Shown: piece by piece, positions 2,941 to 55,841 of the stretch
Layout of the letters: each line of letters starts with the position of its first letter
How positions within the stretch are numbered: position 1 is the first letter of the stretch
IMG/VR virus record: IMGVR_UViG_3300023179_000039
Coordinates: 45,660 to 109,659 of that record
DNA: 64,000 nucleotides
Source of the DNA: a virus
Strand: one strand, 5' to 3'
Notes under the pieces: model-generated
The model's database searches: none
The model's input: the letters and a program-made list of their open reading frames with translations, nothing else
What the model was told of the DNA's origin: nothing
Made by a program: the position numbers and the translations under genes

Positions 2941-3774
2941 GTGAAAGTATTAGTCCTAGGAAAGGGATTTATTGGATCTAAGCTTATTGATTTTTTAAGA
3001 TTAAAAGATGTTGATACTTTTGGTATTGCGCAGAACGAAATTAATTATACTAGCTCTAGAGCGCTTGCTAATCTTTTAAGAGATTACAACTTTACTCACG
3101 TTATTAATTGCTGCGGGTATACAGGTGTACCGAATGTAGACGGATGTGAGAGTAATAAAGAAGACTGTTGGAAATATAATGTAGTTATTGCTTCAAAAAT
3201 TGATAGCCTTGTAAAATACTATAATAAAAAAATGATTCACATTTCAAGCGGTTGCATATACACCGGATATGAAAAAGAATTTGAGGAAACAGATGTACCT
3301 AATTTTGGATTGTTTAATCCGCAGTCGAGTTTTTATAGTAAAACAAAACACGCATTCGAGACAATTATTGACACACATTGCTCTGCAATATTTAGAATAA
3401 GAATGCCTTTTACCGGGTTACGTGAAAATAAAAATTATCTTTACAAGCTTTTAAAATATGATAATTTAATTTCTATGCCTAATAGCTTAACAGGCGTTAA
3501 TGATCTTAATGAACTTGTTTATAAATTTATTTTAGATTTTAGACCAGGACTATATAATGTAGTTAACCCTCAACCTTTGACAGCTAAAGAAATTGTCGAT
3601 ATTATGAAAAAATATAATATTAATAATGTAAATTGGAAGTTTATTGATATATCTAATCTTAATACTGTAGCAAATAGGTCTAATTGCGTGTTAAGTGCTA
3701 ATAAACTAAAGAGCTTAGGTCTATCATTACCAGATACATTAGTTTCATTAGAAAACTGTATAAAGTCCTTATGA
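2941..3774 (+). CDS. NAD(P)-dependent nucleotide-sugar epimerase/reductase (RmlD-like SDR)
   Basis: A 277-residue extended short-chain dehydrogenase. It starts with a beta strand and the GKGFIGSKL dinucleotide-binding loop (GxxGxxG type), has an INCCGYTGVP strand around residues 56-65, the SSGCIY strand preceding the active site, and the catalytic FYSKTKHA (YxxxK) near residue 131. This matches the RmlD family (dTDP-4-dehydrorhamnose reductase) and related epimerases. The enzyme should act on a nucleotide-activated sugar in the host cytoplasm and could supply a donor for the phage glycosyltransferases. Specificity cannot be read from the sequence. The GTG start is fixed by the early promoter 6 nt upstream. 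Confidence 0.8.
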   Translation: MKVLVLGKGFIGSKLIDFLRLKDVDTFGIAQNEINYTSSRALANLLRDYNFTHVINCCGYTGVPNVDGCESNKEDCWKYNVVIASKIDSLVKYYNKKMIHISSGCIYTGYEKEFEETDVPNFGLFNPQSSFYSKTKHAFETIIDTHCSAIFRIRMPFTGLRENKNYLYKLLKYDNLISMPNSLTGVNDLNELVYKFILDFRPGLYNVVNPQPLTAKEIVDIMKKYNINNVNWKFIDISNLNTVANRSNCVLSANKLKSLGLSLPDTLVSLENCIKSL

Positions 3775-13094: not shown

Positions 13095-13102
13095 CATAAA
13101 TA
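13095..13102 (+). promoter_or_regulatory. Late-type promoter box CATAAATA
   Basis: 6 nt before the ATG at 13109 of the tail sheath gene. Confidence 0.65.
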
Positions 13103-13108
13103 CTTTAT

Positions 13109-15406
13109 ATGGCACGTACAATTCAGTCACCCGGAGTTGAAATTCAAGAAATAGATTTATCGTTGAGAAACGCTGGTGCACCATCTACCGTGGTGTTTGT
13201 TCCAGGATTTGCATCAAAAGGCCCTTCTTCAGAACCTATTAGCGTTACATCGTTATCAGAATTTGAACAGATTTTTGGTCAGCCTACCAACTCCGCTGAA
13301 AGATATTTTTATCACTCTGTAAAAGCTACTCTACAGTCACCTGCAACTCCTATTGTATATCGTCTACCTTACGGTGCCGGTGCAGGAGTAGATACAAGTG
13401 ATGAATACAGTGCTTTGGTATATCCTGTTAAGACCTACTGCCCTTCCACCGGATATGTAGATACAGATTTAACAAAGCCCGATAGCGTTTACTTTTTTGG
13501 AGCTCCTACTCACTTAAAACTTACACAATCAGAATATCTTTCAATCTTAAAGGGCGATGCTTTTAGCTGGGATAGCAATACATACGGCAGAACAACATTT
13601 AATTCTGTAACAGCTCTAAGCGGCGCAGGAATGATAGTTTTAAATAAAGGACAAACAACAATCAATACAAAGTTTGAAGGTGTATATATTGGTGTTATAG
13701 ATAATACAAACCTAAATCCAGCTACACCTTACAATGATGTTAATGCAGTATACAGTGTCAACAAGGAAGACAAATCAATCGAAGGATCAAACTACGTTAC
13801 AATTCCTGAAGTTCGTCTTAACTTTACTCTTTCCGCTGATTCAACAGGCTTACAGGGCAGTGTATCCGAGGTATTAGAAAATATACCTACATTTGATATT
13901 TCTTCAAATCAGTTTGATGATACCGTAACAATCGGCGTCTTTAAGCTCAGACAATCAGTATTCTCACCAGATACAATTGCTCTCGATTTCGTACTACAAG
14001 AAGGTTATACAGCTTCATTCGACGCCAACCGTCAGATTAATAGTACTAATGGCGGACCCGCTGTTAGCTACTTCATGGAAACCGCAGATCAAAATTCTAC
14101 AAATATTACAACCATTATTAACCCTTATATTTCTAATAAGGGTGCAAATACATGGCTAGATGCAAATGGTGTTCCGGTTAAGAAAGTACGTTTTCTTAGC
14201 ACCGGCCTTGCAACGCCTCTAGATGGTGAAACATCAACACAATATTTAGCCCGCGTCGGTGCACCTCAGGCAACAGTACAGAGCTTACTTGCCTCACTAG
14301 GTACAACAAACGCTCTTTACGCTCTAGGTGATTATAATAGTGAAGATCTTTCTACAAAAATCATTGGTAATGTACCAGCTAAGCTTTCGATAGCTACAGA
14401 AAAGATAACAAATTCTGATCTCTATCCTTTAAATCTAACTGTAGAGGCTGGTCTCGGTACAGTGTACGTAAATTCGTTTAACCCTTCAACATACGGTTAT
14501 TTTGATGATAGTGTACCTTATGATCTAGTCAATGAAACCTTAGCTATACAAAATCCTAGCACAACTTCTGATATTGTACAACAATACAACGCAGTAGTTG
14601 CACCGTTTATTAATTTAACGTTAACACGAAAAGATCATATGTTTATCGCTGATGCGATTACTAACATCTTTATACAAGGTGCTAATCTTAAGACATTAGA
14701 TATTCCGGATAACACATTTTCATCTCATATTTACTGGCCCCTAAAGAATCAATTTGCTGGTGTAGATACTAGCTATGCTTGCACATTTGGTAATGTAGCT
14801 AAAGTAGCTGATCCTTCAACAAACCAACAGGTTTGGGTTCCATTCTCTGGATTTGCTGCAGCATCAATGGCTTCAACTGATACTAACTTCCAGCCATGGT
14901 ATGCACCGGCAGGCTTTACCCGTGGTATTATCAATGGCGTAGTAGATATTGGTATGTATCCTAAGCAGAAACAACGCGATCAGCTTTATCGTATTAATAT
15001 TAATCCGGTAACATTCTTCCCTGCAGAAGGGTTTGTAATCTTCGGGCAGAAGACTCTTCAAAAGAAGCCAAGCGCTTTTGATCGTATTAATGTACGTAGA
15101 CTGTTCTTGAATATCGAAACAGCAACTCGCGATACAGTTAAGTTCTTCTTATTTGAGCCAAACACATTGTTTACCCGTACTCAAATTATCAATAGCTTAA
15201 CACCAATCTATGATAATGCTAAAAATACACAAGGTATATATGATTATCTCTTAATTTGCGACGAACGTAATAATACGCCCGAGACTATTGATGATAATAC
15301 AATTGTAATAGATGTCTATATTAAGCCTGTAAGAGCTGCAGAGTATATACTTTGTAACTTCTACTGCACAAGAACTGGTACAAACTTCCAGGAGATTGTA
15401 ACTTAA
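13109..15406 (+). CDS. 18: Tail sheath protein gp18
   Basis: A 765-residue contractile sheath subunit (T4 gp18 is 659). The start ARTIQSPGVEIQEIDLS is the standard sheath N-terminus ('PGV.. E.D.S'), followed by VVFVPGFASKGP and the PxxVTSLSEFEQIFG motif. The C-terminal 250 residues (IYWPLKNQ...MYPKQKQRDQLYRININPVTFFP..GFVIFGQKTL) are the conserved sheath core, ending in an NVRRLFLNIETATRDT-type helix and a final exposed strand. The variable middle forms outer domains. GC and codon use look slightly different from nearby genes (more C-ending codons), as expected for a highly expressed late protein. Driven by its own late promoter; no downstream terminator is seen. Confidence 0.92.
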   Translation: MARTIQSPGVEIQEIDLSLRNAGAPSTVVFVPGFASKGPSSEPISVTSLSEFEQIFGQPTNSAERYFYHSVKATLQSPATPIVYRLPYGAGAGVDTSDEYSALVYPVKTYCPSTGYVDTDLTKPDSVYFFGAPTHLKLTQSEYLSILKGDAFSWDSNTYGRTTFNSVTALSGAGMIVLNKGQTTINTKFEGVYIGVIDNTNLNPATPYNDVNAVYSVNKEDKSIEGSNYVTIPEVRLNFTLSADSTGLQGSVSEVLENIPTFDISSNQFDDTVTIGVFKLRQSVFSPDTIALDFVLQEGYTASFDANRQINSTNGGPAVSYFMETADQNSTNITTIINPYISNKGANTWLDANGVPVKKVRFLSTGLATPLDGETSTQYLARVGAPQATVQSLLASLGTTNALYALGDYNSEDLSTKIIGNVPAKLSIATEKITNSDLYPLNLTVEAGLGTVYVNSFNPSTYGYFDDSVPYDLVNETLAIQNPSTTSDIVQQYNAVVAPFINLTLTRKDHMFIADAITNIFIQGANLKTLDIPDNTFSSHIYWPLKNQFAGVDTSYACTFGNVAKVADPSTNQQVWVPFSGFAAASMASTDTNFQPWYAPAGFTRGIINGVVDIGMYPKQKQRDQLYRININPVTFFPAEGFVIFGQKTLQKKPSAFDRINVRRLFLNIETATRDTVKFFLFEPNTLFTRTQIINSLTPIYDNAKNTQGIYDYLLICDERNNTPETIDDNTIVIDVYIKPVRAAEYILCNFYCTRTGTNFQEIVT

Positions 15407-29177: not shown

Positions 29178-31031
29178 ATGGCAACATTTAACGATTTTAA
29201 TTTATCAAAAGACGGGTATGTAGCGTTCGATGCATTGAGTTTAAAAAGCTTAATTACCACCAGACTTAATACAAATAATGTTTTTACAGATCAGAATTTT
29301 GAAGGTAGTAATATTTCTTCCATTATTGATATTATTGCTTATGCATATCATGTTTTAATTTTTTATCTTAATAGATCTGCAGCAGAAAGTACTTTTACTA
29401 CAGCTGAGCTTTACGAAAATATCAATAAAATAGTAAAAATTTTAAATTATAATCCTATCGGCTATCAAACATCTATTTTATCATTTTTAGCAACAGCTCA
29501 ATCATCTCTACCTGCATCTACTTACACTATTCCTAGATATTCCTACTTTACTATCAACGGTTCGCAGTTTTCATTTAATCAAGACATTACTTTCTCTAAA
29601 AACACTAATGCAACAGAAACTTTAACAAATTTACAGGAAAGCAATCTCTTATATCAAGGTGCCTATACAGAATATCCTACATATGTTGCTACTGGAGAGC
29701 CTTTTGAAGTCGTTACCATGACTCTTGTAGATACCAATAATCAGAATATTTTAATCGATCATTTTAATATGGATGTATACGTGAAAGACAATACTGTTGT
29801 CACACCAGTTTGGGAAAAATGGGAACCATCGCAGTCATTGTTCTTAGAAAGATCAAATTCTAAAGTATATGAAGTAAGACTTAATGAAAATGGAAGATAT
29901 GAATATAAATTTGGTAATAATGTTACAGGTAAAAAACTTAATGCAGGTGATGAAGTAGCTATTTATTATTTAAAATCTAGTGGTAAAAAAGGAGAGGTAG
30001 GTACAGGTCTTCTTAACAATAGTAAGCTCTTCTTCTACAGTACACAAAGATTTACGCAGATTCAAAATGATACTACACCCTCAAATATAACATTAATTAA
30101 CTCTGCACAAGCTAGTAAGATCAATTTCAATAATATAGATGCATCCACTCCGTTTGTAGACAGAGAATCCGTTTCTAGTATTAAATTAAACTCTCTTAAT
30201 ACATTTAGAAGTCAGTATAGATTAATTACCGGTGAAGATTTTACCAATTATGTGCTTAAAAATTATAGCAATATTATTTCTTCTTCAGTAGCCGTTAACA
30301 ACTGGGATTATATTACTGGACATTTAAAGTATTATTTTGATCTAGGTGTAGATAAGCCTAATTATGAAAGCAGAGTACTCTTTAACCAAGTCAAATTTGC
30401 AGATTCGTGTAACTTTAATAACGTTTATGTTTATGCTGTACCTAAACTAGAAAAACTTACATCCCTTACAACTAGAACCAATTACTTAAATTCTGCTCAA
30501 AAGCAATTAGTGTTAAACGACTTACAAAAAGTCAAACTTACTACAGCTGAAATTATAATAAACGACCCTGTTTATGTTGCTATTGATATTGGCGTTAGAT
30601 ATCCCGGTGAACTTTTAACCCCTTCAATTGCTGATAATACATTTTTAGAAATTGAAAGAGAAGTTACTGCCAAACGCAACCCTGAAGCTATTAAGCAGCA
30701 AATTTCTCAAATATTTTCTGATTATTTTTCAACTCTTAAAGATAATTTAGGATTGCAAATAAGCCTTACAGAAATTACAAATAAAATATTAGCCATTGAC
30801 GGGGTAAAAGACATTAGAACAAAGAGAACAGAAGGAGATCAAACTATTACTGTACCTGGCATTAGCTTATTAATCTATAATCCTGTATATCCAGAGACAG
30901 ACATTAAAATTACTACACAGGACGAAAAATTACCATACTTTAAATATCCATTTTTAAATAATCCTCTTGATTTTCAAGCAAAAATCAATGTCGTAACACC
31001 ATCTATACAGACATTACAACGTGAGTTTTAA
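29178..31031 (+). CDS. 6: Baseplate wedge protein gp6
   Basis: A 617-residue protein (T4 gp6 is 660) of the gp6/baseplate J type. The N-terminal helix region SNISSIIDIIAYAYHVLIFYLNRSAAESTFTTAELYENI (read in parts) is the conserved 'D...Y......N..A.E.F...A' signature. The DxxLxFGN-like element is NGRYEYKFGNNVTGKKL, and the C-terminal dimerisation part contains ITLTEITNKILAIDGVKDIRT-like sequence (I-S-L-T-E-I-T-N-K-I-L). It builds the ring around the baseplate hub. Located between gp25 and the gp7-position gene as in T4. Confidence 0.88.
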   Translation: MATFNDFNLSKDGYVAFDALSLKSLITTRLNTNNVFTDQNFEGSNISSIIDIIAYAYHVLIFYLNRSAAESTFTTAELYENINKIVKILNYNPIGYQTSILSFLATAQSSLPASTYTIPRYSYFTINGSQFSFNQDITFSKNTNATETLTNLQESNLLYQGAYTEYPTYVATGEPFEVVTMTLVDTNNQNILIDHFNMDVYVKDNTVVTPVWEKWEPSQSLFLERSNSKVYEVRLNENGRYEYKFGNNVTGKKLNAGDEVAIYYLKSSGKKGEVGTGLLNNSKLFFYSTQRFTQIQNDTTPSNITLINSAQASKINFNNIDASTPFVDRESVSSIKLNSLNTFRSQYRLITGEDFTNYVLKNYSNIISSSVAVNNWDYITGHLKYYFDLGVDKPNYESRVLFNQVKFADSCNFNNVYVYAVPKLEKLTSLTTRTNYLNSAQKQLVLNDLQKVKLTTAEIIINDPVYVAIDIGVRYPGELLTPSIADNTFLEIEREVTAKRNPEAIKQQISQIFSDYFSTLKDNLGLQISLTEITNKILAIDGVKDIRTKRTEGDQTITVPGISLLIYNPVYPETDIKITTQDEKLPYFKYPFLNNPLDFQAKINVVTPSIQTLQREF

Positions 31032-37618: not shown

Positions 37619-39910
37619 ATGGTAACGCTCTATACAATGACAACAGCCGATAGGGCTTCAGTTTTATATGATTTTAAGACTATTGACACGTCAAAAGACA
37701 TAATAGTTTCTTTTGACTATAATAGTTCTGGTATTATTGACAATGTAGGGGAGGGATTTAGTTTATTTTTTACCGAAAGTATAAACAATTTTCCCAAAGG
37801 TGGCGCTCTCGGCCCAGGATTAGGCGCAACAAGCTTGGTTGCTATTTCGAGCTTTTGTTACAGTATACCCATTCCTCCTTTTAATATTTGTGTTAATATT
37901 CCGGTTATGTATTCAGGAGTAAGAGAAGCTGCTTTAGTGGTTGGCTTTGATATTACTGGTAAATTTGGTTCTAATAATAGTGGATTAGATGGTCCCTCCG
38001 ATCCAATACCTAACTCAATAGCTATTAGAAGCGGGTACAATCAAAACTTTAATTTCATTTATAGAACACCCGCATTAACAAGTAACGAGATTGCCGAGCC
38101 TTTTAGTCTTTATAGTAATGATCAAACTACATACAACACATTTAGAGCTAGGCTTACAAACTTAGGAAAAAATTTAATTTTAGATCATAAAATAGCTGAC
38201 GGTACATTTTATAATATCTGTAACGTGCAAATACCTTATGATCTACCTGGATATGTATATCCTTGTATCGGCTATAGTTCAGGAATAAGACCTTTTAATT
38301 TAACAGTTAAAAATTTTTATGAAAACGGATTTTTTGTAACACCTACTAATACACCAACAGTTACACCTACGAATACCGTTACACCAACAGTAACACCTAC
38401 GAATACCGTTACACCAACAGTAACACCTTCATTTACTGTCACACCATCTAATACACCGACTTATTCGCCCACACCGTCTATAACACCTACTAATTCGATG
38501 ACTCCTACTATTACACCGACCTATACAGAGACGCCCACAGAAACACCTACAAATACACCTACATTGACCATTACACCTACTAACTCGATGACGCCTTCTA
38601 TTACTCCTACGTATACAGAAACACCAACAGTGACACCTACAAACTCGATGACACCTTCTATTACACCTACAAACACCGTTACACCGTCCTTTACACCTAC
38701 AAATACACCGACCTTAACGCCTACACCTACGGTAACACCTACAGTTACTCTACCTGACTACTTGCCATTCCCATCACAACAAAATAACATTATTATTAAC
38801 GATAATACAATAGCTACACCTTACCCGGTTACATTTAGTGTAGCTGGAATTACAAGAACAGTTTACAAGGTAGTTGTAAAGCTTACAAATTATACCCATT
38901 CATTTGTAGGTGATGTAGGAATGCTTTTAGTTGCACCAGATGGTACATCTACAATTATTGCTGGTAGAATTGGAGATGATCAACAGGCTAACAATACAAC
39001 AGTTGTGTTAGATCAGCGTGCCTCTAAGGCATGGGATGGATACACATCAGGTACATTTAGACCTAATTCTGTCGCTGATGACTTCCCATTCGATGCACCA
39101 GCGCCTACTGGTCCTTTCTCAACTACATTAGATGCATTCTTCTATATGCCAGCTGTAAATGCAAACGGTACATGGAAACTTTACATACAAGACTTTGCTG
39201 CAGACGATGCTGGTACCATGCAGAGTGCAGAGCTTAGGATATATCAATACTCACCTAATGCGTCGCCAACACCTACACCAACAATTACACCTACCTTTAC
39301 TCCTACACCTACAGTTACACCTACTATACCAATTACACCCACACAAACACCTACACTTACACAAACACCTACTATAACACCTTCTATTACTATTTCGCCT
39401 TCTAATATAGACTATACAGCTTTCCCATCTTCAACAACTAATCTAATTATAAATGACTTGACTGTCGCCACTCCTTATCCTCTAGAGATACCGGTATCAG
39501 GCATAACTAATACAACATCCAGAATTTCTATATCCTTGAGTGGTTATGATCATTCTTATCCAGAAGACGTTGTAATGCTATTAGTATCTCCTGTTAATAC
39601 CGCATGTATCATTTCAGGTAGAATAGGACTACAAGCGGCTAACAACATTAATGTAATACTTGACCAAAGCGCTTCGCTTTATTGGGATGGATATAGCCCA
39701 GGAATGTTTAAGCCTAACACATCTGCAAATAATTTTGACATGAGCTTAACTAATGGATGCCCTACCGGTCCGTACAATACATCTATGGCTGTGTTTAATA
39801 ACTTACCATATCCCGATGTTAACGGAACTTGGAAGCTATACATTCAGGATTTCGCCGCTCAGGATACAGGTACATTGTATAGAGCTATACTAAGGCTTCA
39901 TCATTATTAA
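37619..39910 (+). CDS. Adhesin: lectin-like domain, Thr-Pro linkers, two P-domains
   Basis: A 763-residue multi-domain fibre protein. Residues 1-240 resemble an L-type lectin-like beta sandwich ([39 protein letters not shown]). Residues about 241-376 are Thr-Pro repeats ([12 protein letters not shown] type). Residues 380-546 and 598-763 are two copies of a proprotein-convertase P-domain-like jelly roll: each has a Y..F/P..N.IIND start, [13 protein letters not shown] or [27 protein letters not shown] or [14 protein letters not shown], and [13 protein letters not shown] near the end. A short second Thr-Pro linker lies between them (549-594). Probable receptor-binding or accessory fibre. No promoter of its own; it starts 1 nt after the preceding gene. 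Confidence 0.75.
38340..38750 (+). repeat. Thr-Pro coding repeat tract
   Basis: Degenerate 6-, 12- and 30-nt units of the type ACACCTACAAAT encoding TPT/NTPT, about 135 residues. Includes a direct 30-nt duplication near 38360-38420. Linker between the lectin-like domain and the first P-domain. Confidence 0.85.
39264..39401 (+). repeat. Second Thr-Pro coding repeat tract
   Basis: About 45 residues of TPT-type repeat between the two P-domains of the same fibre gene. Confidence 0.8.
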
Positions 39911-39911
39911 T

Positions 39912-39941
39912 TAATAAGATTGATTTAAACCGATCTTATTA
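39912..39941 (+). other. Intergenic hairpin between fibre gene and glycosylation cassette
   Basis: TAATAAGAT (39912-39920) pairs with ATCTTATTA (39933-39941), extendable by T-G and G-C pairs, loop about 8 nt. No T-run follows, so terminator activity is doubtful. The stem overlaps the -35 and spacer of the promoter for the cassette, which could make it regulatory. Confidence 0.4.
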
Positions 39942-39947
39942 TAAAAT
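39920..39947 (+). promoter_or_regulatory. Early sigma70-like promoter of the glycosylation cassette
   Basis: TTGATT (39920-39925), 16 nt, TAAAAT (39942-39947), 6 nt, GTG at 39954. The same geometry as the clamp, sugar-reductase and dUTPase promoters, and unlike the -35-less late boxes of the surrounding structural genes. Confidence 0.6.
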
Positions 39948-39953
39948 ATTCTT

Positions 39954-41240
39954 GTGAAGTCAAAGAAAGCTTTAAAAACATCAAGTACCAAAAAGAATAA
40001 TGAAAAAATATTTATATCTATTGCATCCTATAGAGATCCGCAGTTACTACCCACACTGCGCGATTGTATAGCTAACGCTGTACATCCTGAGAATTTAGTT
40101 TTTTCTATTTGCTGGCAAAGAGACGAGAAAGAATCGCTAGAAGAGTTTGCAAAAGACAGCAGATTTAGAATTATAGATATACCTTATAAGGAAAGCAAAG
40201 GGACATGTTGGGCAAGAAGCAAGATACAAGATAATTATCAGAACGAAAAATACTATCTACAATTAGACAGTCATCATAGATTTGTAAAAGACTGGGATAA
40301 AAAGTGTATAGATATGGTTAAACAGTTACAGAAAAAAGGCCATAAGAAACCGCTACTAACAGGCTACATTTCTAGCTTTAATCCGGATAATGACCCCGCT
40401 GAAAGAATACAAACACCATGGAAAATGAATTTTGATAGATTTATTCCTGAAGGTGCTGTATTTTTTCTACCTGCTTCTATAGACGATTTTAAATCAAGAA
40501 CTGAACCAGTACCTTCTAGATTTGTATCTGCACATTTTATTTTTACGCTAGGTAAATGGGTAGAAGAAGTGCCTTATGATCCTCATTACTACTTTCATGG
40601 TGAAGAGATAAACTTAGCAGTTAGATCATATACGTGGGGATATGATTTGTTTCATCCTCATATTTTGATTGCATGGCATGAATATACAAGAAGAGGAAGA
40701 ACTAAGCATTGGGATGATGTAAAAGAATGGGGTGAATTAAACAGACTATCTCATCTTCGTAATAGAAAGTTATTTGAAATGGATGGCGAAAAGAATGATA
40801 TTAAATGGGGTAAATATGGATTTGGTAAGACCAGAACATTACAAGACTATGAAAAATATTCAGGTCTATGTTTTAAGAGGAGAGCTGTACAGCGTTGGAC
40901 GTTAGATAACAATTATCCACCTAATCCTAATCAAGCTATGACAAAGGATGAATATGAAAAATCGTTCTTAAAAATATTTAAACATTGTATTGATATAGGA
41001 TATGACAGAGTTCCAGAAAAAGATTATGATTTTTGGTGTGTAGCCTTTAAAGATAAAGAAGGTAAAGATGTGTTTCGTAAAGATGCTGATCGCGCTGAAA
41101 TAGATAGAATGTTTGCTGATCCTGACAAATATTGTAAGGTTTGGAGAGAATTTAATTGTGAGGAGATGCCTACCAGCTGGATTGTTTGGCCACATAGCGT
41201 TTCTAAGGGATGGGCAGATCCAATTACTGGTAATATCTAA
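39954..41240 (+). CDS. GT60-type glycosyltransferase (GlcNAc transferase family, Skp1-HyPro GlcNAcT-like)
   Basis: A 428-residue GT-A enzyme. Family-diagnostic segments are IFISIASYRDPQLLPTLRDC (19-38), KGTCWARSK (82-90), YLQLDSHHRF (101-110, the LDSH metal/nucleotide site in place of a DxD), RFVSAHFIFTLG, HYYFHGEEINLAVRSYTWGYDLFHP (about 211-235; HGEE is a second acidic motif) and WHEYTRRGRTKHWDD. This is the Pfam GlcNAc/CAZy GT60 pattern, whose characterised members add GlcNAc to hydroxyproline of Skp1. It heads a five-gene cassette between fibre genes and has an early-type promoter with a GTG start. The likely acceptor is a protein, possibly the phage Thr-Pro fibres; that is inference. Confidence 0.8.
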   Translation: MKSKKALKTSSTKKNNEKIFISIASYRDPQLLPTLRDCIANAVHPENLVFSICWQRDEKESLEEFAKDSRFRIIDIPYKESKGTCWARSKIQDNYQNEKYYLQLDSHHRFVKDWDKKCIDMVKQLQKKGHKKPLLTGYISSFNPDNDPAERIQTPWKMNFDRFIPEGAVFFLPASIDDFKSRTEPVPSRFVSAHFIFTLGKWVEEVPYDPHYYFHGEEINLAVRSYTWGYDLFHPHILIAWHEYTRRGRTKHWDDVKEWGELNRLSHLRNRKLFEMDGEKNDIKWGKYGFGKTRTLQDYEKYSGLCFKRRAVQRWTLDNNYPPNPNQAMTKDEYEKSFLKIFKHCIDIGYDRVPEKDYDFWCVAFKDKEGKDVFRKDADRAEIDRMFADPDKYCKVWREFNCEEMPTSWIVWPHSVSKGWADPITGNI

Positions 41241-41248
41241 GTCTCTAT

Positions 41249-41914
41249 ATGAAGTTTTTAATTAAATTTCCCTGTAGAGGAAGGCCTGATAAGTTTAAAT
41301 CTACATTTCTCTCTTATTTTAATCTTATGTCTAAAAAACACGATGTGAGGTTTGTATTTACTTTTGATAATGACGATTCTTTAATGAATAGCGATAACAT
41401 AAAAAACTTTTTAGCTGATTATAAAGATATATGTGAAGTTAATTACGGTGACTGTAAGAATAAGATAGAAGCCGTTAATGCTAATATGGAAAATAAAGAG
41501 TTTGATATTCTTCTTTTAGCAAGCGACGATATGATACCGCTATTAACTTCTTATGATGATACAATCTGTAATGACATACAGACTAATTTTCCTGATTTAG
41601 ATGGTAGTGTCCAGTATTATAACCCAATGTGGGCAGAGCGATTAGACGTTGTATGTATTATGGGGTATCCTTATTATAAAAGATTTAACTACATTTATTA
41701 TCCTGGTTATAAATCGATTTACTGTGATAATGAATTTACACAAGTTAAAAATAAATTGAATAAAAACAAATATATACCAGAAACACAAATGTTTAATCAT
41801 AATTTTGTTATGAATGACGATACGGCTGCAAAAAACTGGCATTTTAATACAGAAGATGAACGGCTTTTTAATAAAAGACTAGTTGAAGGCTTTGATTTAC
41901 CATGTTCTCAGTAA
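41249..41914 (+). CDS. Putative GT-A glycosyltransferase
   Basis: A 221-residue protein starting MKFLIKFPCRGRPDKFKSTF, like GT2-type enzymes that begin with a strand and 'RGRPDKF'. The predicted metal-binding motif is in FDILLLASDDMIPL (about residues 90-103, SDDM as the DxD equivalent). WAERLDVVCIMGYPYYKRF follows, and DDTAAKNWHFNTEDERLFNKR near the end. It is small but retains a complete GT-A core. It starts 8 nt after the previous stop without a Shine-Dalgarno, and the next gene overlaps by 13 nt, so it belongs to the cassette operon. Donor and acceptor unknown. Confidence 0.65.
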   Translation: MKFLIKFPCRGRPDKFKSTFLSYFNLMSKKHDVRFVFTFDNDDSLMNSDNIKNFLADYKDICEVNYGDCKNKIEAVNANMENKEFDILLLASDDMIPLLTSYDDTICNDIQTNFPDLDGSVQYYNPMWAERLDVVCIMGYPYYKRFNYIYYPGYKSIYCDNEFTQVKNKLNKNKYIPETQMFNHNFVMNDDTAAKNWHFNTEDERLFNKRLVEGFDLPCSQ

Positions 41915-43248
41915 AAGGTATTCCGCTAGCCGACAGAGGCTATTATGTTAATTTAGATTCGTCTACTGAAAGAAAAGCGTTAGTTGAAGAGCAGATTAAA
42001 AAGTTTGATATTATAGATTTAGATAGATTTCCTGCCTTAACCGATCCCTTACACCAGAGCTCTGCCACTAAAAGTCAAAGAGCAGTATTTGAAGAAGCAG
42101 AAAAAAATAACTTTGAAACGATTTTTGTTGCAGAAGATGACTTCTTTATACCTGATACAGTACCGCATTACCCCAATTTAAAGCAAAAGACTTTTGAAGA
42201 GCATTTAAAAGATGTTGCAGAAGATCTTAAGACGTTAAATTGGGATGTTTATATGTTTGGTTGTACTCCCCGCTCATTTCTTATACCCTTTACAAAAAAT
42301 TCTGCTTTAATAGATAGAAGTACAGGTGCCTGGGCTTATTTAATTAAAAAACATGCATGGCGGTTTATATTAGAAAATTTTAGCTACGGTAGAGACTATC
42401 AAGCTATTGATAACATACTACCTTTATTAAATTTTAACAATTTTAGAGTCTTTACTTCACTTCCGCTACTTATACATCATTCTAAAGGCCTTGTTTCTAC
42501 CTTACAACCCGGGCTTGGACCTGTAGATTATACGCATTTAATAGAAGGGTATTATGGTAAGTTTTTATTAGACGGGGTTTTACCCGATGAAGACTATGTA
42601 GGTAAGCATAGCGTTGAAAGAGAAGTTACTATAGTGTTTCTGGATAGTATGTATGAGAGGTTTGTAGATATAATGAGAAAAACGCTTTTTAATCTTCCTA
42701 ATAGCGTTTCAAAATGTAGAATATTAATGTACTATATTGATAGTTATGATCATAAAACACAAGAACTAATAAGCTATTTTAGAGATAGACCCGATTTTTA
42801 TAATGTACATATTGAGCTTTTTAAAGATATGGATTGTTTAATATCAAGAATTGCTCAGATAGCTCAGACGCCCTACGTGCTTTTAATAAACCCAAAACAT
42901 ATTTTTACAAATAAAGAGATAGACTTTAATAACATCATAAAAAACGTTAAGGATAATAATATTGATGCATTAGTTTTTAATAACGATGACCAGTCAATAG
43001 AATTTTTTGATAAATTTGATAATCTTAACAATTTAACAAGCATACCAAACACTATTAGTTTAATAAAAACAGAATTTTTAAAAATTAATCCTACCGCTAA
43101 TCTATTTGACAATACATTAGTAGAAGGTAAAATAATAAAAAATTTAGATTATAAAGTTGGCTATCAAAACACCACTCAAAATAAATGTGTTGCAGATACA
43201 AAAACCGACGAATACATATTAAACAACCCGTTTAAAGATTATTATTGA
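41902..43248 (+). CDS. GT25-like glycosyltransferase with second C-terminal domain
   Basis: A 448-residue two-part protein. Residues about 10-220 match the GT25 family (LPS and collagen hydroxylysine galactosyltransferases): GYYVNLDSSTERKALVEEQIKKF, then FPALTD, KSQRAVFEEAEKN, IFVAEDDFF (77-79 acidic triad) and WDVYMFGCTPR...GAWAYLIKKHAWRFI. The C-terminal 220 residues start REVTIVFLDSMYERFVDIM and look like a further GT-A-type domain without a clear DxD (LLINPKHIF in its place), possibly inactive. It overlaps the previous gene by 13 nt. Family identity is fairly clear; acceptor is not. Confidence 0.7.
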   Translation: MFSVKGIPLADRGYYVNLDSSTERKALVEEQIKKFDIIDLDRFPALTDPLHQSSATKSQRAVFEEAEKNNFETIFVAEDDFFIPDTVPHYPNLKQKTFEEHLKDVAEDLKTLNWDVYMFGCTPRSFLIPFTKNSALIDRSTGAWAYLIKKHAWRFILENFSYGRDYQAIDNILPLLNFNNFRVFTSLPLLIHHSKGLVSTLQPGLGPVDYTHLIEGYYGKFLLDGVLPDEDYVGKHSVEREVTIVFLDSMYERFVDIMRKTLFNLPNSVSKCRILMYYIDSYDHKTQELISYFRDRPDFYNVHIELFKDMDCLISRIAQIAQTPYVLLINPKHIFTNKEIDFNNIIKNVKDNNIDALVFNNDDQSIEFFDKFDNLNNLTSIPNTISLIKTEFLKINPTANLFDNTLVEGKIIKNLDYKVGYQNTTQNKCVADTKTDEYILNNPFKDYY

Positions 43249-43886
43249 TGAACTCCAAGATTGATAAAAGTATTAACCTAGAGGCAAATGATGGTCTTTG
43301 CATCTATGTCGACGAGCAATTTGGTCGGTTAGCATGCATGCAAAATAATAACGTTTTTGATGTATTTGATACTTTTATTTCTGATATTAAACCTGCGCGT
43401 GTTTTAGAGATCGGAACCGCATTAGCAGGCCTTACATGCTATATTAAAACCCTCTTACAGAAATATACACCTGACAGTGAAATCGTATCATATGATGTTT
43501 TAGATAGAAATTGGTTTGATGAATTGAGAGAGAAAGGCGTTAATATAAAGATAGAAGATATTTTTTCTGAAAATTATTCAGTTGTAAAAGATAATGTAAT
43601 TGAATTTATTAAGTCACCAGGTACTACAGTAGTATTGTGCGATGGCGGTAGTAAAGCAAAAGAATTTAATATTTTATCTAATTATCTTAAGAAGGGTGAT
43701 TTTATTTTAGCGCATGATTACAGCATTACAATTGATTATTTTTATGAAAATATTAATAAAAAACTTTGGAATTGGTGCGAGATTTTAGAATCTGATATTG
43801 CTGATTCAGTTACAAGAAATAATTTAGTTGACTATAAAAATAAGCTGTTTAACAAAGCTGTATGGACATGCAAGAAAAAAGTATGA
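43248..43886 (+). CDS. SAM-dependent methyltransferase (class I)
   Basis: About 212 residues, read from the ATG at 43248 that overlaps the previous TGA by 1 nt. The SAM-binding motif I is ARVLEIGTALAGLTCYI, motif II is around SEIVSYDVLD, and the downstream TTVVLCDGGSKAKEFNIL plus GDFILAHDYS form the acidic strand-loop typical of cephalosporin-hydroxylase/Methyltransf_24-type O-methyltransferases. It probably methylates a sugar added by the neighbouring transferases. It overlaps the next gene by 4 nt (ATGA) from the preferred start, or 25 nt from the upstream ATG. Confidence 0.75.
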   Translation: MNSKIDKSINLEANDGLCIYVDEQFGRLACMQNNNVFDVFDTFISDIKPARVLEIGTALAGLTCYIKTLLQKYTPDSEIVSYDVLDRNWFDELREKGVNIKIEDIFSENYSVVKDNVIEFIKSPGTTVVLCDGGSKAKEFNILSNYLKKGDFILAHDYSITIDYFYENINKKLWNWCEILESDIADSVTRNNLVDYKNKLFNKAVWTCKKKV

Positions 43887-46198
43887 TTAATACAAATAAA
43901 ATACTTTCTTTTAATAATAAAAAACTTGATCCTTCTATAGTTAATACTGATCAAATAAAAAACATAGTACTTTATTTAGCTAGCTGTATTGATAGTAAAC
44001 TACCTGGTGATGTAGTTGAACTTGGCTGCTATGTAGGTGAAACTAGCAAATATATTTCTAAAACTATTGAAGAATCTAAGTCTAATAAAAAATATTATGT
44101 TTATGATTCTTTTGAGGGGTTACCCGATCTATCTAAATTTGAAGAAGGTACTGGGTGGAAGCCACGGACTCTTAATACTACTGAAGATATTCTTGTCTCA
44201 AATTTCGAACTTAATAATGTTCCGCTTCCCATTATAACAAAAACCTGGTTTAAAGATATAAAAAATAAGCAACTACCAAAGCAAATTTGCTTTGCTTTTT
44301 TAGATGGTGATTTCTACACATCAATTTATGAAAGCTTAGAAAAGGTATATGATAGAGTAGTTGACGGCGGTTATATCTTAGTACATGATTATAAAAGACC
44401 CGATCTACCAGGTGTAGAAGCAGCAATACAGGAATATTTTAGAATCAATAAATTAGAACTTAATATTATTGAAGCTTGTGAACAATTAGCAGTAATTAGA
44501 AAAAACAAAAAACCTGAAAAAATTAATACGCAAAAATCATGTTATACGATTGTAACGGGTCTTTGGGATATAGGACGCGATAAGTTAAAAGAAGGTTGGT
44601 CACGTGGTTATTCACATTACTTAGAAAAATTAGAAGAACTATTAAAAGCTGATTTTAATCTTATTATTTTTGGCGATAAAGAATTGGAGAAGTTTGTTAG
44701 CGAGCGTAGATCTGACTACAATACACAGTTTGTCTTAAGAGATATCGACTGGATTAAAAATATGCCATTTTTTGATAAAATTCAAGAAATTAGAACTGAT
44801 CCTGACTGGTATACGCAAGCAGGTTGGTTAGCAGATTCAACCCAAGCAAAGCTAGAGCTTTATAACCCCTTAGTAATGTCTAAGGTATTTTTATTACACG
44901 ACGCTAAAATTCTTGATAAGTTTGATTCTGAATATTTGTTTTGGCTTGACGCAGGCATTACAAACACAGTGCATTATGGTTATTTTACACATGATAAAGT
45001 TTTAGATAAGCTACCTTCAATACTAGAAGATAAGTTTTTGTTTGTCAGTTTCCCCTATCCTGATGGCGCAGAAATTCATGGTTTTTCGCGTAATAAAATG
45101 AATGAAATAGCTCAAGCAGAGAATGTTGAGTATGTTTGTAGAGCGGGATTTTTTGGCGGGCCTAAGAATGTAATTTCTGAAATTAATAGTATTTATTACG
45201 GGCTATTGAACAGTACTTTAAGCGAAGGTTATATGGGTACAGAAGAAAGTATCTTTACCCTAATGACATACTTACACCCTCATTTATTTACAAGATTTTC
45301 AATAGAGGGTAACGGGCTGCTAGGTAAATTTTTTGAAGATTTAAAAAATATTAAAGTAGAAGATAAAAAGAAAGCAATTGATACAAATATCTTATCCGGC
45401 GTAACTCTTTATGTAATCACATTTAATTCACCTAAACAGTTCGCTACATTGTGTGAAAGTTATTTAAAGCAACCAGGTTTTATAAAGGAAACAACTAATT
45501 ATCTTCTTGACAACAGCACAGACGCGTCTACATTTGATGAATATAAAGCTCTTTGCGATAAATATAACTTTGTTCATATAAAGAAAGATAATCTTGGTAT
45601 TTGTGGTGGTAGGCAGTTTATTGCTGAGCATTTCCACGAAAGTAATTCTAAATACTGCATTTTTCTAGAGGATGACATGACATTATGTACCAAAAATTTT
45701 GCACCATGTAAGAATGGGCTATCGCGCTTTACTAATAATTTATTTTATAAGATAGTAAAAATTATGGATAAAGAAAAATTTGACTTTCTCAAGCTATCTT
45801 TTACAGAATTTTTTGGCGATAACTCTATTCAATGGGCATGGTATAATGTACCTCAGCATGTAAGAGAGAGTTTTTGGCCAAACAATAAAAAACTACCTCA
45901 GATGGGATTGGACCCTAATGCACCTAAGACAGAATTTAAGCATATCAATAATATAGACGGTCTTAGCTATATTAATGGCGATATATACTATTGTAATTGG
46001 CCGCAAATAGTCTCAAAAGCAGGTAATAAAAAAATGTTTATTGATACTAAATGGGCATCGCCTTTTGAACAGACATGGATGTCATATATGTTTCAGCTTA
46101 CTAAACAAGGCGATTTAAAAGGCGGGCTTCTATTATTATCTCCTATAGAACATAATAGATTTGATCATTATTCTAATAAATTACGTAGAGAAAACTAG
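43883..46198 (+). CDS. Three-domain fusion: TylF-like O-methyltransferase, HtrL/YibB-like GT, GT2-like GT
   Basis: About 771 residues from the ATG at 43883 (ATGA overlap with the previous stop; an in-frame ATG at 43862 would add 7 residues). Domain 1 (about 20-205) is TylF/macrocin O-methyltransferase-like: DVVELGCYVGETSKYI, YVYDSFEGLPDLS, FAFLDGDFYTSIYESLE, GGYILVHDYKRPDLPGV. Domain 2 (about 219-470), CYTIVTGLWDIGRDKL...LFWLDAGITNTV, matches the HtrL/YibB (WlaTC) family. Domain 3 (about 506-770) is GT2-like: GVTLYVITFNSP, NLGICGGRQFIAEHF and a DxD in IFLEDDMTL. A single polypeptide could add sugars and cap by methylation. Last gene of the cassette. Confidence 0.72.
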   Translation: MINTNKILSFNNKKLDPSIVNTDQIKNIVLYLASCIDSKLPGDVVELGCYVGETSKYISKTIEESKSNKKYYVYDSFEGLPDLSKFEEGTGWKPRTLNTTEDILVSNFELNNVPLPIITKTWFKDIKNKQLPKQICFAFLDGDFYTSIYESLEKVYDRVVDGGYILVHDYKRPDLPGVEAAIQEYFRINKLELNIIEACEQLAVIRKNKKPEKINTQKSCYTIVTGLWDIGRDKLKEGWSRGYSHYLEKLEELLKADFNLIIFGDKELEKFVSERRSDYNTQFVLRDIDWIKNMPFFDKIQEIRTDPDWYTQAGWLADSTQAKLELYNPLVMSKVFLLHDAKILDKFDSEYLFWLDAGITNTVHYGYFTHDKVLDKLPSILEDKFLFVSFPYPDGAEIHGFSRNKMNEIAQAENVEYVCRAGFFGGPKNVISEINSIYYGLLNSTLSEGYMGTEESIFTLMTYLHPHLFTRFSIEGNGLLGKFFEDLKNIKVEDKKKAIDTNILSGVTLYVITFNSPKQFATLCESYLKQPGFIKETTNYLLDNSTDASTFDEYKALCDKYNFVHIKKDNLGICGGRQFIAEHFHESNSKYCIFLEDDMTLCTKNFAPCKNGLSRFTNNLFYKIVKIMDKEKFDFLKLSFTEFFGDNSIQWAWYNVPQHVRESFWPNNKKLPQMGLDPNAPKTEFKHINNIDGLSYINGDIYYCNWPQIVSKAGNKKMFIDTKWASPFEQTWMSYMFQLTKQGDLKGGLLLLSPIEHNRFDHYSNKLRREN

Positions 46199-52385: not shown

Positions 52386-55300
52386 ATGGCAAAATTTGTT
52401 TTTAAAGCTAACGTAGGTGGGGCAGGGTCAAACGTAGTACCAATATTACCCACACCCACGACTACACCTACAGAATCACCTCCCCTGCCTTCTGAGACAC
52501 CTACACAAACGCCTACCGCTACACCTACGAAAACTACAAATTTAGCTGTATCACAGACACCCACTCAAACACCTACCGTTACAAAGACGCCTACTAATAC
52601 ACATACGGTAACCCCATCCATCACCTTAACACCTACATCGACGCTGACGCCTACCCATACACCTACTTTATCTCCTACAGTTACTCAAACGCCTACTAAT
52701 ACACCTACTGTTACTGTAACAAATACACCTACTAATACTTTAACTCCTACAAATACCCCCAACCCCACTCCTACAGAAACACCTACATTGACACCTACAG
52801 TTACAATGTCGGAAACGCCTACTAATACACCTACCTTAACTCCTACTTTGACGCCTACAGAGACACCGACTAATACACCTACCGTTACTGTTACTAATAC
52901 GACTACTGTTACGCCGTCAGAAACACCAACAAATACACCAACAGTAACAAACACCGTTACACCGACAGAAACGCCAACCGAAACGCCTACTAATACACCG
53001 ACAAATACTGTTACACCTTCATTTACATTTACACAGACACCTACAGAAACACCTACTCTTACCCCAACATGTACAGAAACCCCGACAAATACAGTTACTC
53101 CAACTGAAACTCCGACTGAAACTCCGACAAATACACCTACAGTAACTTCAACAGTAACACCTACAAATACTGTAACAGAAACACCTACACAAACACCAAC
53201 CGTCACACCGTCCTTTACACCTACAGAAACCCCGACAAATACCCCTACTGTAACGGTAACTAATACTGTAACGCCATCGTTTACTCTAACTGAAACACCT
53301 ACAAACACCGTTACGCCGACATTTACACCAACTGAAACCCCTACTAATACACCGACCAATACTTTAACTCCAACTTATACACCTACCGTCACAGTAACAA
53401 ATACACCTACTAATACTTTAACCCCTACTTATACGCCTACCGTCACAGTAACAAATACACCTACTGTGACACCTACCTATACTGTAACGCCTACTAATAC
53501 AGTTACACCGACTACCACATTAACATATACACCTACCTTTACTCCTACTAATTCACCTACAACTACAATGTTCGATACAATGACACCGACACCCACTTTA
53601 ACGCCTACCAATACACCTACCAACACAAAAACGCCGACAGTTACACCAACTAACACAGTATCTCCTACACTGACAATGACATCAACTGTTACACCTACTG
53701 TTACACCTACAGTTACGAAAACAGCAACACCTACTTTAACACCAACTAATACACCCACAGTTACTGTAACAAACACACCTACAAATACTCTTACTCCAAC
53801 CCCGACAAATACCCCTACTGTAACGGTAACTAATACTGTAACGCCATCGTTTACTCCTACACTTACACCTACAGTAACACCTACAGTAACGCCTACTAAT
53901 ACACCAACAGTTACGGTGACAAACACACCAACTAATACCGTAACGCCTTCGTTTACATTTACTCAAACTCCTACTATAACACCGACCAACACACCAACTA
54001 ATACCGTTACGCCTACAATAACGCCTACTGTTACCGTGACAAATTCACCAACTAATACAGTTACGCCTACTAATACTGTAACTGTCACGCCTACCAATAC
54101 ACCTACCAACACAGTTACACCCACTAATACTGTTACTGTAACACCTACAAATACTGTTACACCAACTGTAACACCTACAGTAACTCCGACAAATACCGTT
54201 ACACCTTCGTTTACATTTACACAAACACCTACAGTTACACCGACCAATACAGTAACGCCTACTGTAACGCCTACTGTAACGCCAACAGCAACACCTACTT
54301 ATACTGTAACGCCTACTAATACCCCTACACTTACAGTTACAGGCACACCTACCCCTACACTTACAGTTACAGGCACACCTACTAATACGCCAACAAATAC
54401 AAGAACACCTACTTTAACACCTACCGTTACGCCAACAGTAACTCCGACAAACACGGTAACACCATCATTTACATTTACACAGACTTCTACCGTTACACCG
54501 ACCAATACAGTAACGCCTACTGTTACACCTACAGTTACGAAAACAGTAACACTAACACCCACCGTTACACCTACTAATACAGTTACCTCAACTGTTACAC
54601 CAACTATAACTCCTACAAAAACCGTAACACCGTCCTTTACGTTTACGCCAACAAATACGTTAACACCTACAATTACACCTACCAATACACAGACTCCTAC
54701 CGTTACACCAACTAATACTATTACACCTACTGTTACGCCGACTGTAACCCCTACAAAGACGTTAACACCTACTTTAACGTTAACACCTACAGTAACACCA
54801 ACTAGTACGCCGACACCAACACAGACGCCAACACCTTCTATTACTCCTACCACATCTCTAACTCCTACTATTACACCAACAAATACTGTTACACCAACTG
54901 TAACACCCACAGTTACACAAACAATAACACCTACTACAACGCAAACACCTACTTATACACAAACGAGCACAGTGACGCCAACTATTACGCCTACCACATC
55001 TGAGACACCCACTATTACGCCTACCACATCTGAGACGCCTACCTTAACACCAACAGTGACACAGACACCTTCTTTCACATTTACACCTACGGTAACAATA
55101 ACACCTACTACTACACAAACACCTACTGTAACAATAACACCTACTACTACACAAACACCAACAAATACCCCAACAGTAACACAGACGCCAACATTAACAC
55201 CAACAATAACACCTACATATACACCAACTAAAACACCTACGCAGACTTTGACACCTACTAATACGCCCACCGTTACACCTACACCTACTAAGACGCCTAC

Positions 55301-55841
55301 AGTAACACCAACAATAACGCCCACGGTAACTAAGACACCTACACAAACACCTACAACTACATTAACACCAACAATAACGCCCACGGTAACTAAGACACCT
55401 ACACAAACACCTACAACTACATTAACACCAACAATAACGCCCACGGTAACTAAGACACCTACACAAACACCTACAACTACACCTACAGATACGCCAATAC
55501 TAGCAAATTATATGAATACTTCTGTTGTATGTGATGGTACTGCACAGTCTGCATGTATAGGTACAACTCCTTACAGTACCTTAAATATTAGTGGAGTTGC
55601 AGGGCTTATATTTAAGTTTAATTGTAGTACAAATTATAATACTGCTGTTGATACAGGGTTAACTAATCAAATCTATATTAATGGCGTACAGGTTGCTACT
55701 ATTAACTTCCAGAGAAGGTCACCTACATCATCATATTATGAATTATTCTCCGTACAGAACGGTGTAGGTGCACCTGTATATTATGGTAAGTTTAGATCTA
55801 ATCTTACTAAGATATATTTCCCTGAGGATAACCAGACTTAA
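52386..55841 (+). CDS. Giant Thr-Pro-rich (mucin-like) fibre protein
   Basis: A 1151-residue protein in three parts. Residues 1-22 are an anchor-like start shared with the preceding short gene. Residues about 23-1037 are almost pure Thr-Pro repeat (TPTNTPT, TPTVTPT, TETPT and FTPT variants), with Thr at about every second position and Pro at every third. Residues 1038-1151 are a globular domain ([53 protein letters not shown]) with two or three Cys. The repeat should be an extended, unfolded or polyproline-II rod, a potential site of dense O-glycosylation. It is intact, in frame and without stop codons. The C-terminal domain could be the receptor-binding tip. GC is higher than its neighbours. 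Confidence 0.75.
52449..55497 (+). repeat. 3-kb Thr-Pro coding repeat array
   Basis: Degenerate hexamer/dodecamer array on ACACCTAC/ACGCCTACT-type units, biased to T/A/C with almost no G on the plus strand. Several longer direct duplications lie inside it, for example ACCACATCTGAGAC units at about 54980-55037 and the 60-bp triplicate at 55303-55481. Confidence 0.9.
55303..55481 (+). repeat. Perfect 60-bp tandem repeat, three copies
   Basis: The 60-nt blocks starting 55321 and 55381 are identical, and a third copy runs to 55481. Each encodes a 20-residue Thr-Pro unit. Exact identity in an otherwise degenerate array points to recent duplication. Confidence 0.9.

Follow-up and report, generated by a model that had tools for sequence, protein, structure and literature searches.

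The stretch of viral DNA discussed here, called the window, is 64,000 nucleotides (nt) long and corresponds to C1:45660-109659 of the 109,659-bp virus record IMGVR_UViG_3300023179_000039, an own genome record that may be incomplete. Its carrier is a large freshwater virus of bacteria, a T4-superfamily myovirus according to terminase, sheath and baseplate wedge matches, and on its plus strand lies a cassette of five genes (39954-46198) for glycosyltransferases (GTs) and methyltransferases. It is probable, with reasonable confidence, that this cassette serves mucin-type O-glycosylation in the cytoplasm and that its targets are structural proteins of the phage itself; glycosylation of the phage's Thr-Pro fibres is the most likely reading, in which the acceptor, the sugars, the order of action and the role are all inferred. 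This reading draws on the genes themselves, the class of their promoter, a conserved gene pair with a variable interior, the fold of the first enzyme and a statistical link to Thr-Pro repeats.

The genes are, in order, a GT60 gene, a small GT-A gene, a GT25-like gene, a sugar-type methyltransferase gene and a gene for a fusion protein of TylF, HtrL_YibB and GT-A-like domains. Their junctions are tight, namely an 8-nt gap, a 13-nt overlap, a 1- or 4-nt overlap and a 4- or 25-nt overlap, the methyltransferase and fusion genes having alternative ATG starts at 43248 and 43883, respectively. The sequence-only reading, which had described one operon with overlaps of 1-13 nt throughout, thus holds for the operon and the later overlaps, one of which is possibly 25 nt, but not for the first junction. 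Because a nucleotide search of phage records with the window gave no match, relatives were sought by protein, and 80 related viral loci together with those of the cultured jumbo phages XacN1 and RAS14 make up a set of 82. GT60 and a two-domain enzyme of HtrL_YibB and GT-A type (HtrL-GT-A) occur together in 71 of these 82 loci, always on the same strand; HtrL-GT-A lies downstream of GT60 in 40 loci, with 1.5-5.8 kb between them, and upstream in 31, in 25 of which it overlaps GT60 by 28 bp. Several of the 11 loci without the pair are cut by contig ends. The conserved unit is therefore a two-gene core of GT60 and HtrL-GT-A, and the proposal that the five genes form a unit stands for the operon but not for its conservation, since the three middle genes and the TylF domain, each present in a minority of loci, are swapped, lineage-specific cargo.

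The cargo lying in the interior of these loci comprises 341 open reading frames (ORFs) in 86 clusters, many of which match nothing. The recognised families mostly belong to glycan chemistry and include methyltransferases and GTs (FkbM, TylF, CmcI, GT7, GT10, GT11, GT17, GT25, GT34 and a PLOD-type GT) as well as carbamoyltransferase, sulfotransferases, DegT aminotransferase, nucleotidyltransferases and acetyltransferases. A fixed core with exchangeable tailoring genes is the layout of a glycan locus.

The GT60 product matches PF11397 ("GlcNAc", equal to CAZy GT60) with an E-value of 1e-69 and 236 bits, the curated cut-off being 21. D105-S106-H107, E217, E218 and H242 are invariant in 32 GT60 homologues, the D-S-H presumably being the metal-binding D-x-H motif of the GT27/GT60 type and the glutamates the conserved acidic residues, roles assigned by analogy to polypeptide GalNAc-transferases (ppGalNAc-T). 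Searching solved structures by sequence returned nothing of note. The structural model of GT60 (mean pLDDT, 84) finds ppGalNAc-T2, T4 and T12, which belong to the enzymes that initiate sugar chains on animal mucins, as its best PDB matches (E 2e-10; template modelling (TM) scores, 0.43-0.50). The enzyme is proposed as a predicted polypeptide N-acetylhexosamine (HexNAc)-transferase with a ppGalNAc-T-like fold. Members of the GT60 family in protists are polypeptide α-GlcNAc-transferases which initiate mucin-type glycans and, in the cytosol, modify Skp1; on Skp1 a single bifunctional GT with two domains then attaches the next two sugars (PMC8724618, PMC6939170). We infer that in the phage GT60 starts the glycan, HtrL-GT-A extends it and the cargo enzymes branch and methylate it.

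As to the acceptor, the cassette sits in the structural region of the genome, with a baseplate wedge gene upstream (29178-31031), a Thr-Pro gene on one side and fibre-region genes on the other, and the Thr-Pro proteins at 37619-39910 and 52386-55841 are confirmed. The gene just before the cassette encodes a protein with P-domains and 90 Ser/Thr residues adjoining Pro, a homologue of which lies directly upstream of GT60 in close relatives, and the mucin-like protein encoded further downstream (1151 amino acids, 44% Thr, 17.5% Pro) has 379 Ser/Thr residues adjoining Pro over about 1050 residues. When viral records were searched with a strict DNA pattern for TPTxTPTxTPT, it was found in 34 of 50 GT60-carrying records but in only one of 32 random viral records of at least 32 kb (Fisher p 9e-10), and in 11 of the 12 GT60-carrying records of at least 139 kb. 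In the reverse direction, GT60 occurs in 15 of 38 records with the Thr-Pro pattern and in 0 of 32 random ones (Fisher p 2e-5). Homologues of the cassette occurring mainly in phages without Thr-Pro repeats, which would have spoken against the fibre proposal, are thus not what is found.

Cultured phages and bacteria point in the same direction. XacN1 carries GT60 (ORF334), a carbamoyltransferase and HtrL-GT-A (ORF330), and in both XacN1 and RAS14 the giant protein adjoining the pair (ORF325 in XacN1) contains short Thr-Pro tracts. Proteomics of XacN1 is reported to have revealed at least two glycoproteins, which in its authors' tentative view may be made by the phage GTs ORF328 and ORF334 (PMC5852040). 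In addition, one scan of bacterial and archaeal genomes gave GT60 relatives of 42-63% identity in metagenome-assembled genomes of Saprospiraceae, other Bacteroidota, Gemmatimonadota, Verrucomicrobiales and an alphaproteobacterium, and seven of these relatives adjoin HtrL-GT-A. The Saprospiraceae locus carrying the pair is chromosomal (UvrB and NIF3 are nearby), and a Thr/Ser-Pro-rich gene with a type IX secretion system (T9SS) sorting tail adjoins GT60 there. More distant GT60s are found in Burkholderiaceae. In 6 of 21 loci there (L414, L415, L472, L478, L482 and L485) they adjoin two-partner-secretion adhesins of the filamentous-haemagglutinin-like kind, whereas none of 20 control regions holds such an adhesin (p 0.012; 0.024 when the query locus is left out). 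A long (PTPA)n tract forms the end of one of the adhesins. This layout resembles that of HMW1/HMW1C, but with another GT family. Thr-Pro counts in the GC-rich Burkholderiaceae regions (10/20 versus 7/20) were confounded by wrong reading frames, so the adhesin test was used instead. The Thr/Ser-Pro and adhesin neighbourhoods speak for an acceptor that is a protein of adhesin-like kind in this type of enzyme.

The promoter of the cassette, TTGATT-N16-TAAAAT, ends 6 nt before the GT60 start codon and belongs to a class of the general form TTGATT-N15-17-TATAAT-like, with blocks at a fixed distance (about -34) and ending about 6 nt before the start. The same two-block motif precedes DNA polymerase B, the gene before UvsX/RecA, DnaB, gp32, dUTPase and an RmlD-like gene. 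With GT60 omitted from the training set of this position-fixed motif, its promoter still ranks 6 among about 105 genes by two-block score, windows scoring as well precede 9 of 9409 NTG codons, and both blocks are kept in 15 of 15 close relatives, whereas the spacer diverges. The early-class assignment made from the sequence is borne out by this company and conservation, and early timing of the cassette may be supposed from the genes that share its promoter. A generic sigma-70 (and terminator) scan stayed at chance level (91 sites versus 97 expected) and was replaced by the two-block test; a predicted hairpin across the promoter (z -4.1) is regarded as incidental, because the spacers of relatives differ and the hairpin is not obviously kept. 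As for the late boxes earlier ascribed to the fibre genes, the exact T4 late box TATAAATA was dropped as a late signal, being rarer than chance (6 observed versus 19 expected), but the shorter (A/T)TAAATA, used in its place, does stand 3-8 nt before the start of the sheath and other structural genes. The RmlD/epimerase-like gene (window 2941-3774) which shares the promoter class is a possible nucleotide-sugar supplier for the cassette. Furthermore, both promoter classes end 3-10 nt before start codons throughout the phage's own record (e.g., window 39920-39953 and 13096-13109), and a Shine-Dalgarno-like motif is found in 6 of 105 genes, versus 3.4 expected by shuffling, so the phage appears to use leaderless or Shine-Dalgarno-independent translation throughout, which is a clue to its host.

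Family searches uphold the enzyme identities read from the sequence, although the small GT-A and GT25-like genes match weakly. The small GT-A is only a weak GT match (phrog_14945, E 1e-8), and its homologue occurs in 6 of 83 loci, its own locus counted. The GT25-like product is weak by Pfam (Glyco_transf_25, 0.008), its EDD motif being nevertheless invariant, and its second domain is shortened here by several deletions, with INPK in place of the relatives' EHDW; this decay makes it likely that one glycosylation step has been lost in the phage of the window. The methyltransferase matches RMNT_CmcI (PF04989, E 2.5e-5) and NF045824 (E 1.5e-4). In the fusion protein, which is the methyltransferase-GT-GT fusion earlier described, TylF (PF05711, E 5e-21) and HtrL_YibB (PF09612, E 2e-13) are followed by a further, weakly matching GT-A-like domain (TAGT/phrog_842). 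Its first domain has the fold of the sugar O-methyltransferases NovP, SpnH and MycF, and the rest matches multi-domain GTs, e.g., chondroitin polymerase, LARGE1 and LH3.

Table 1. Cassette genes, promoter and proposed acceptors in the window.
Feature	Position	Strand	Basis
GT60 enzyme resembling polypeptide HexNAc-transferases (core gene 1, conserved; proposed initiator)	39954..41240	+	PF11397
Small GT-A glycosyltransferase, variable cargo	41249..41914	+	phrog_14945
GT25-like glycosyltransferase, second GT domain decayed, variable cargo	41902..43248	+	Glyco_transf_25, EDD motif
S-adenosylmethionine (SAM) methyltransferase, rhamnosyl O-methyltransferase/CmcI kind, variable cargo	43245..43886	+	PF04989, NF045824
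Fusion of TylF sugar O-methyltransferase, HtrL_YibB GT and GT-A (HtrL_YibB and GT-A: core gene 2, conserved)	43862..46198	+	PF05711, PF09612, folds
Early-class promoter TTGATT-N16-TAAAAT	39920..39947	+	Two-block motif common to replication genes
Thr-Pro-linker protein with proprotein-convertase P-domains, proposed acceptor	37619..39910	+	PF01483
Mucin-like protein, proposed acceptor	52386..55841	+	Thr/Pro composition

The proposed pathway would run as follows. The replication-class promoter would switch the operon on, so that the enzymes would be present before the late fibre proteins are made. GT60 would then initiate the chain by linking an N-acetylhexosamine to Thr (or Ser) within the Thr-Pro repeats of the fibres, the two-domain HtrL-GT-A enzyme would add the next one or two sugars, and the variable enzymes, here the GT-A, the GT25-like enzyme and two sugar-type O-methyltransferases, would extend and cap the chain to give an O-methylated glycan particular to each phage. 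The decorated fibres would enter the virion, where the glycan may stiffen and shield the mucin-like repeats or alter what they bind.

Several points weigh against this pathway. To our knowledge, no activity has been demonstrated for HtrL_YibB, and the overall TM-score of the GT60 model to ppGalNAc-T is only 0.43-0.50. The controls of the Thr-Pro comparison were random records without matching of lineages; among gp6-related phages the difference has the right direction (3/5 versus 1/7) but, in this underpowered comparison, is not significant (p 0.15). The strict Thr-Pro pattern is missing in 16 of the 50 GT60-carrying records, 15 of them shorter than 139 kb and the other being L052, and the Thr-Pro proteins are placed in the virion by gene position only. 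The glycoproteins of XacN1, moreover, are unnamed in the accessible text of PMC5852040; they might be different proteins, or owe their glycans to ORF328. Decoration by the phage of its own Thr-Pro fibres, which the sequence-only reading proposed, is the best reading, and the interpretation as a whole is partly supported. L052 (IMGVR_UViG_3300018050_001118; 180,831 bp) is the sole long GT60-carrying record without the Thr-Pro pattern; it is without HtrL-GT-A nearby, has ThyA and three matches to 2-oxoglutarate (2OG)-Fe(II) oxygenases, and possibly represents a hydroxyproline-type use of GT60.

Both host-glycan conversion and modification of the phage's DNA are less likely than glycosylation of the fibres. 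If the enzymes instead remodelled, in the course of infection, a glycan on the host surface (O-antigen, capsule or S-layer glycan) so as to block superinfection or change the receptor, this would be in keeping with a cargo resembling that of cell-surface glycan loci, with an early-class promoter suited to host takeover and with HtrL/YibB being a bacterial family without a clear role. This is unlikely, however: the GT60 family uses polypeptides as acceptors and the fold is ppGalNAc-T-like, the family search of the cassette revealed no flippase, polymerase or membrane GT, and the links to Thr-Pro repeats and to bacterial adhesins would be left unexplained. That the cassette hypermodifies phage DNA with glycans is very unlikely. 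The last GT-A domain is weakly similar to the TET-associated GT (TAGT) and to phrog_842, a β-glucosyl-HMC-glucosyltransferase, QueC is present in the genome and the promoter is early, but the TAGT match is below its cut-off (16.8 versus 27.5 bits), TET_JBP was found in 0 of 18 GT60-carrying records in a search without positive control, a ThyA-family enzyme occurs in only 3 of 18, and in bacteria GT60 stands beside genes for surface proteins. In the phage's replication region lie QueC (L086:7008-7748), a glutamine amidotransferase (GATase_6, L086:9360-9926) and another GT (L086:9923-10597), and 7-deazaguanine DNA modification by these is possible.

Glycosylation of virion proteins outside the Thr-Pro repeats, that is, on capsid, tail tube or globular fibre domains, or on hydroxyproline, is a further reading. 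Glycans are carried on the C-termini of capsid and tail tube in mycobacteriophages (Freeman et al. 2023, as cited in PMC12619734), hydroxyproline is the substrate of one branch of GT60 (PMC8724618, PMC6939170), and L052 combines GT60 with 2OG oxygenases without the Thr-Pro pattern. Since GT60 co-occurs with and adjoins Thr-Pro proteins, this reading is nevertheless improbable here. The prolyl-hydroxylase family PF13640, furthermore, is found in only 2 of 18 GT60-carrying records and not in the phage's own; its absence from most records makes Thr/Ser a likelier acceptor than hydroxyproline.

Virion glycosylation is documented in few phages, and the papers searched describe no acceptor or machinery of this kind; no account of GT60 in phages or of the pair of GT60 and HtrL-GT-A was found in that literature, which was covered in part. 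If Thr-Pro fibres are indeed glycosylated, large phages, most of them from freshwater, would in sizeable number have fibres that are mucin-like and coated with glycans, the sugars being specific to each genome. This might be a phage counterpart of serotype variation, with possible effects on adsorption, protease resistance and recognition by bacteria, and the sugar coat may serve the virus particle as a rapidly changing disguise or grip. Glycosylated fibres would also suggest that GT60 enzymes, characterised in protists as initiators of mucin glycans, have relatives among prokaryotes which coat adhesins in the cytoplasm. More broadly, GT60 and HtrL-GT-A may be a general prokaryotic mucin-type O-glycosylation module, serving Thr/Ser-Pro-rich adhesins in bacteria and mucin-like tail fibres in large phages, with an interior swapped like an O-antigen locus so that the fibre glycans of related phages differ; this wider proposal is a tentative one, about which doubt slightly prevails. 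As XacN1 is cultured, the idea of glycosylated fibres is directly testable.

Among known systems, the protist mucin-type/Skp1 pathway is similar in that its initiating enzyme is of the same family (PF11397), cytosolic in the case of Skp1, and is followed by a two-domain bifunctional GT. However, PgtA of that pathway is GT2 plus GT74, whereas the second phage enzyme is HtrL_YibB plus GT-A, the genes here are those of a phage, and most phage records lack a prolyl hydroxylase. The loci of serine-rich repeat protein (SRRP) adhesins (GtfA/GtfB; PMC6973325) also have a conserved initiating pair and strain-variable extenders beside a repeat-rich surface protein, but the phage enzymes are of other families, the acceptor repeats are Thr-Pro and the setting is a phage virion. 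GtfA/GtfB and accessory Sec families were not found in the cassette by family searches, and only the architecture is alike. TET/hydroxymethyl-dependent phage DNA hypermodification clusters share the mixture of GTs and tailoring enzymes and the weak TAGT similarity, but GT60-carrying records are without TET and rarely have a ThyA-family enzyme. We know of no GT60/HtrL pair or mucin repeats in the virion glycosylation of mycobacteriophages; as there, phage GTs would modify the phage's own structural proteins, although the mycobacteriophage glycans lie on C-termini (as cited in PMC12619734). XacN1 is alike in its GT60, HtrL-GT-A, Thr-Pro giant protein and reported glycoproteins, but this is a jumbo phage with other interior genes (a carbamoyltransferase), and its authors named only ORF328 and ORF334 and described neither the pair nor an acceptor (PMC5852040). 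The present system is rated as a variant of phage virion glycosylation rather than as a separate category.

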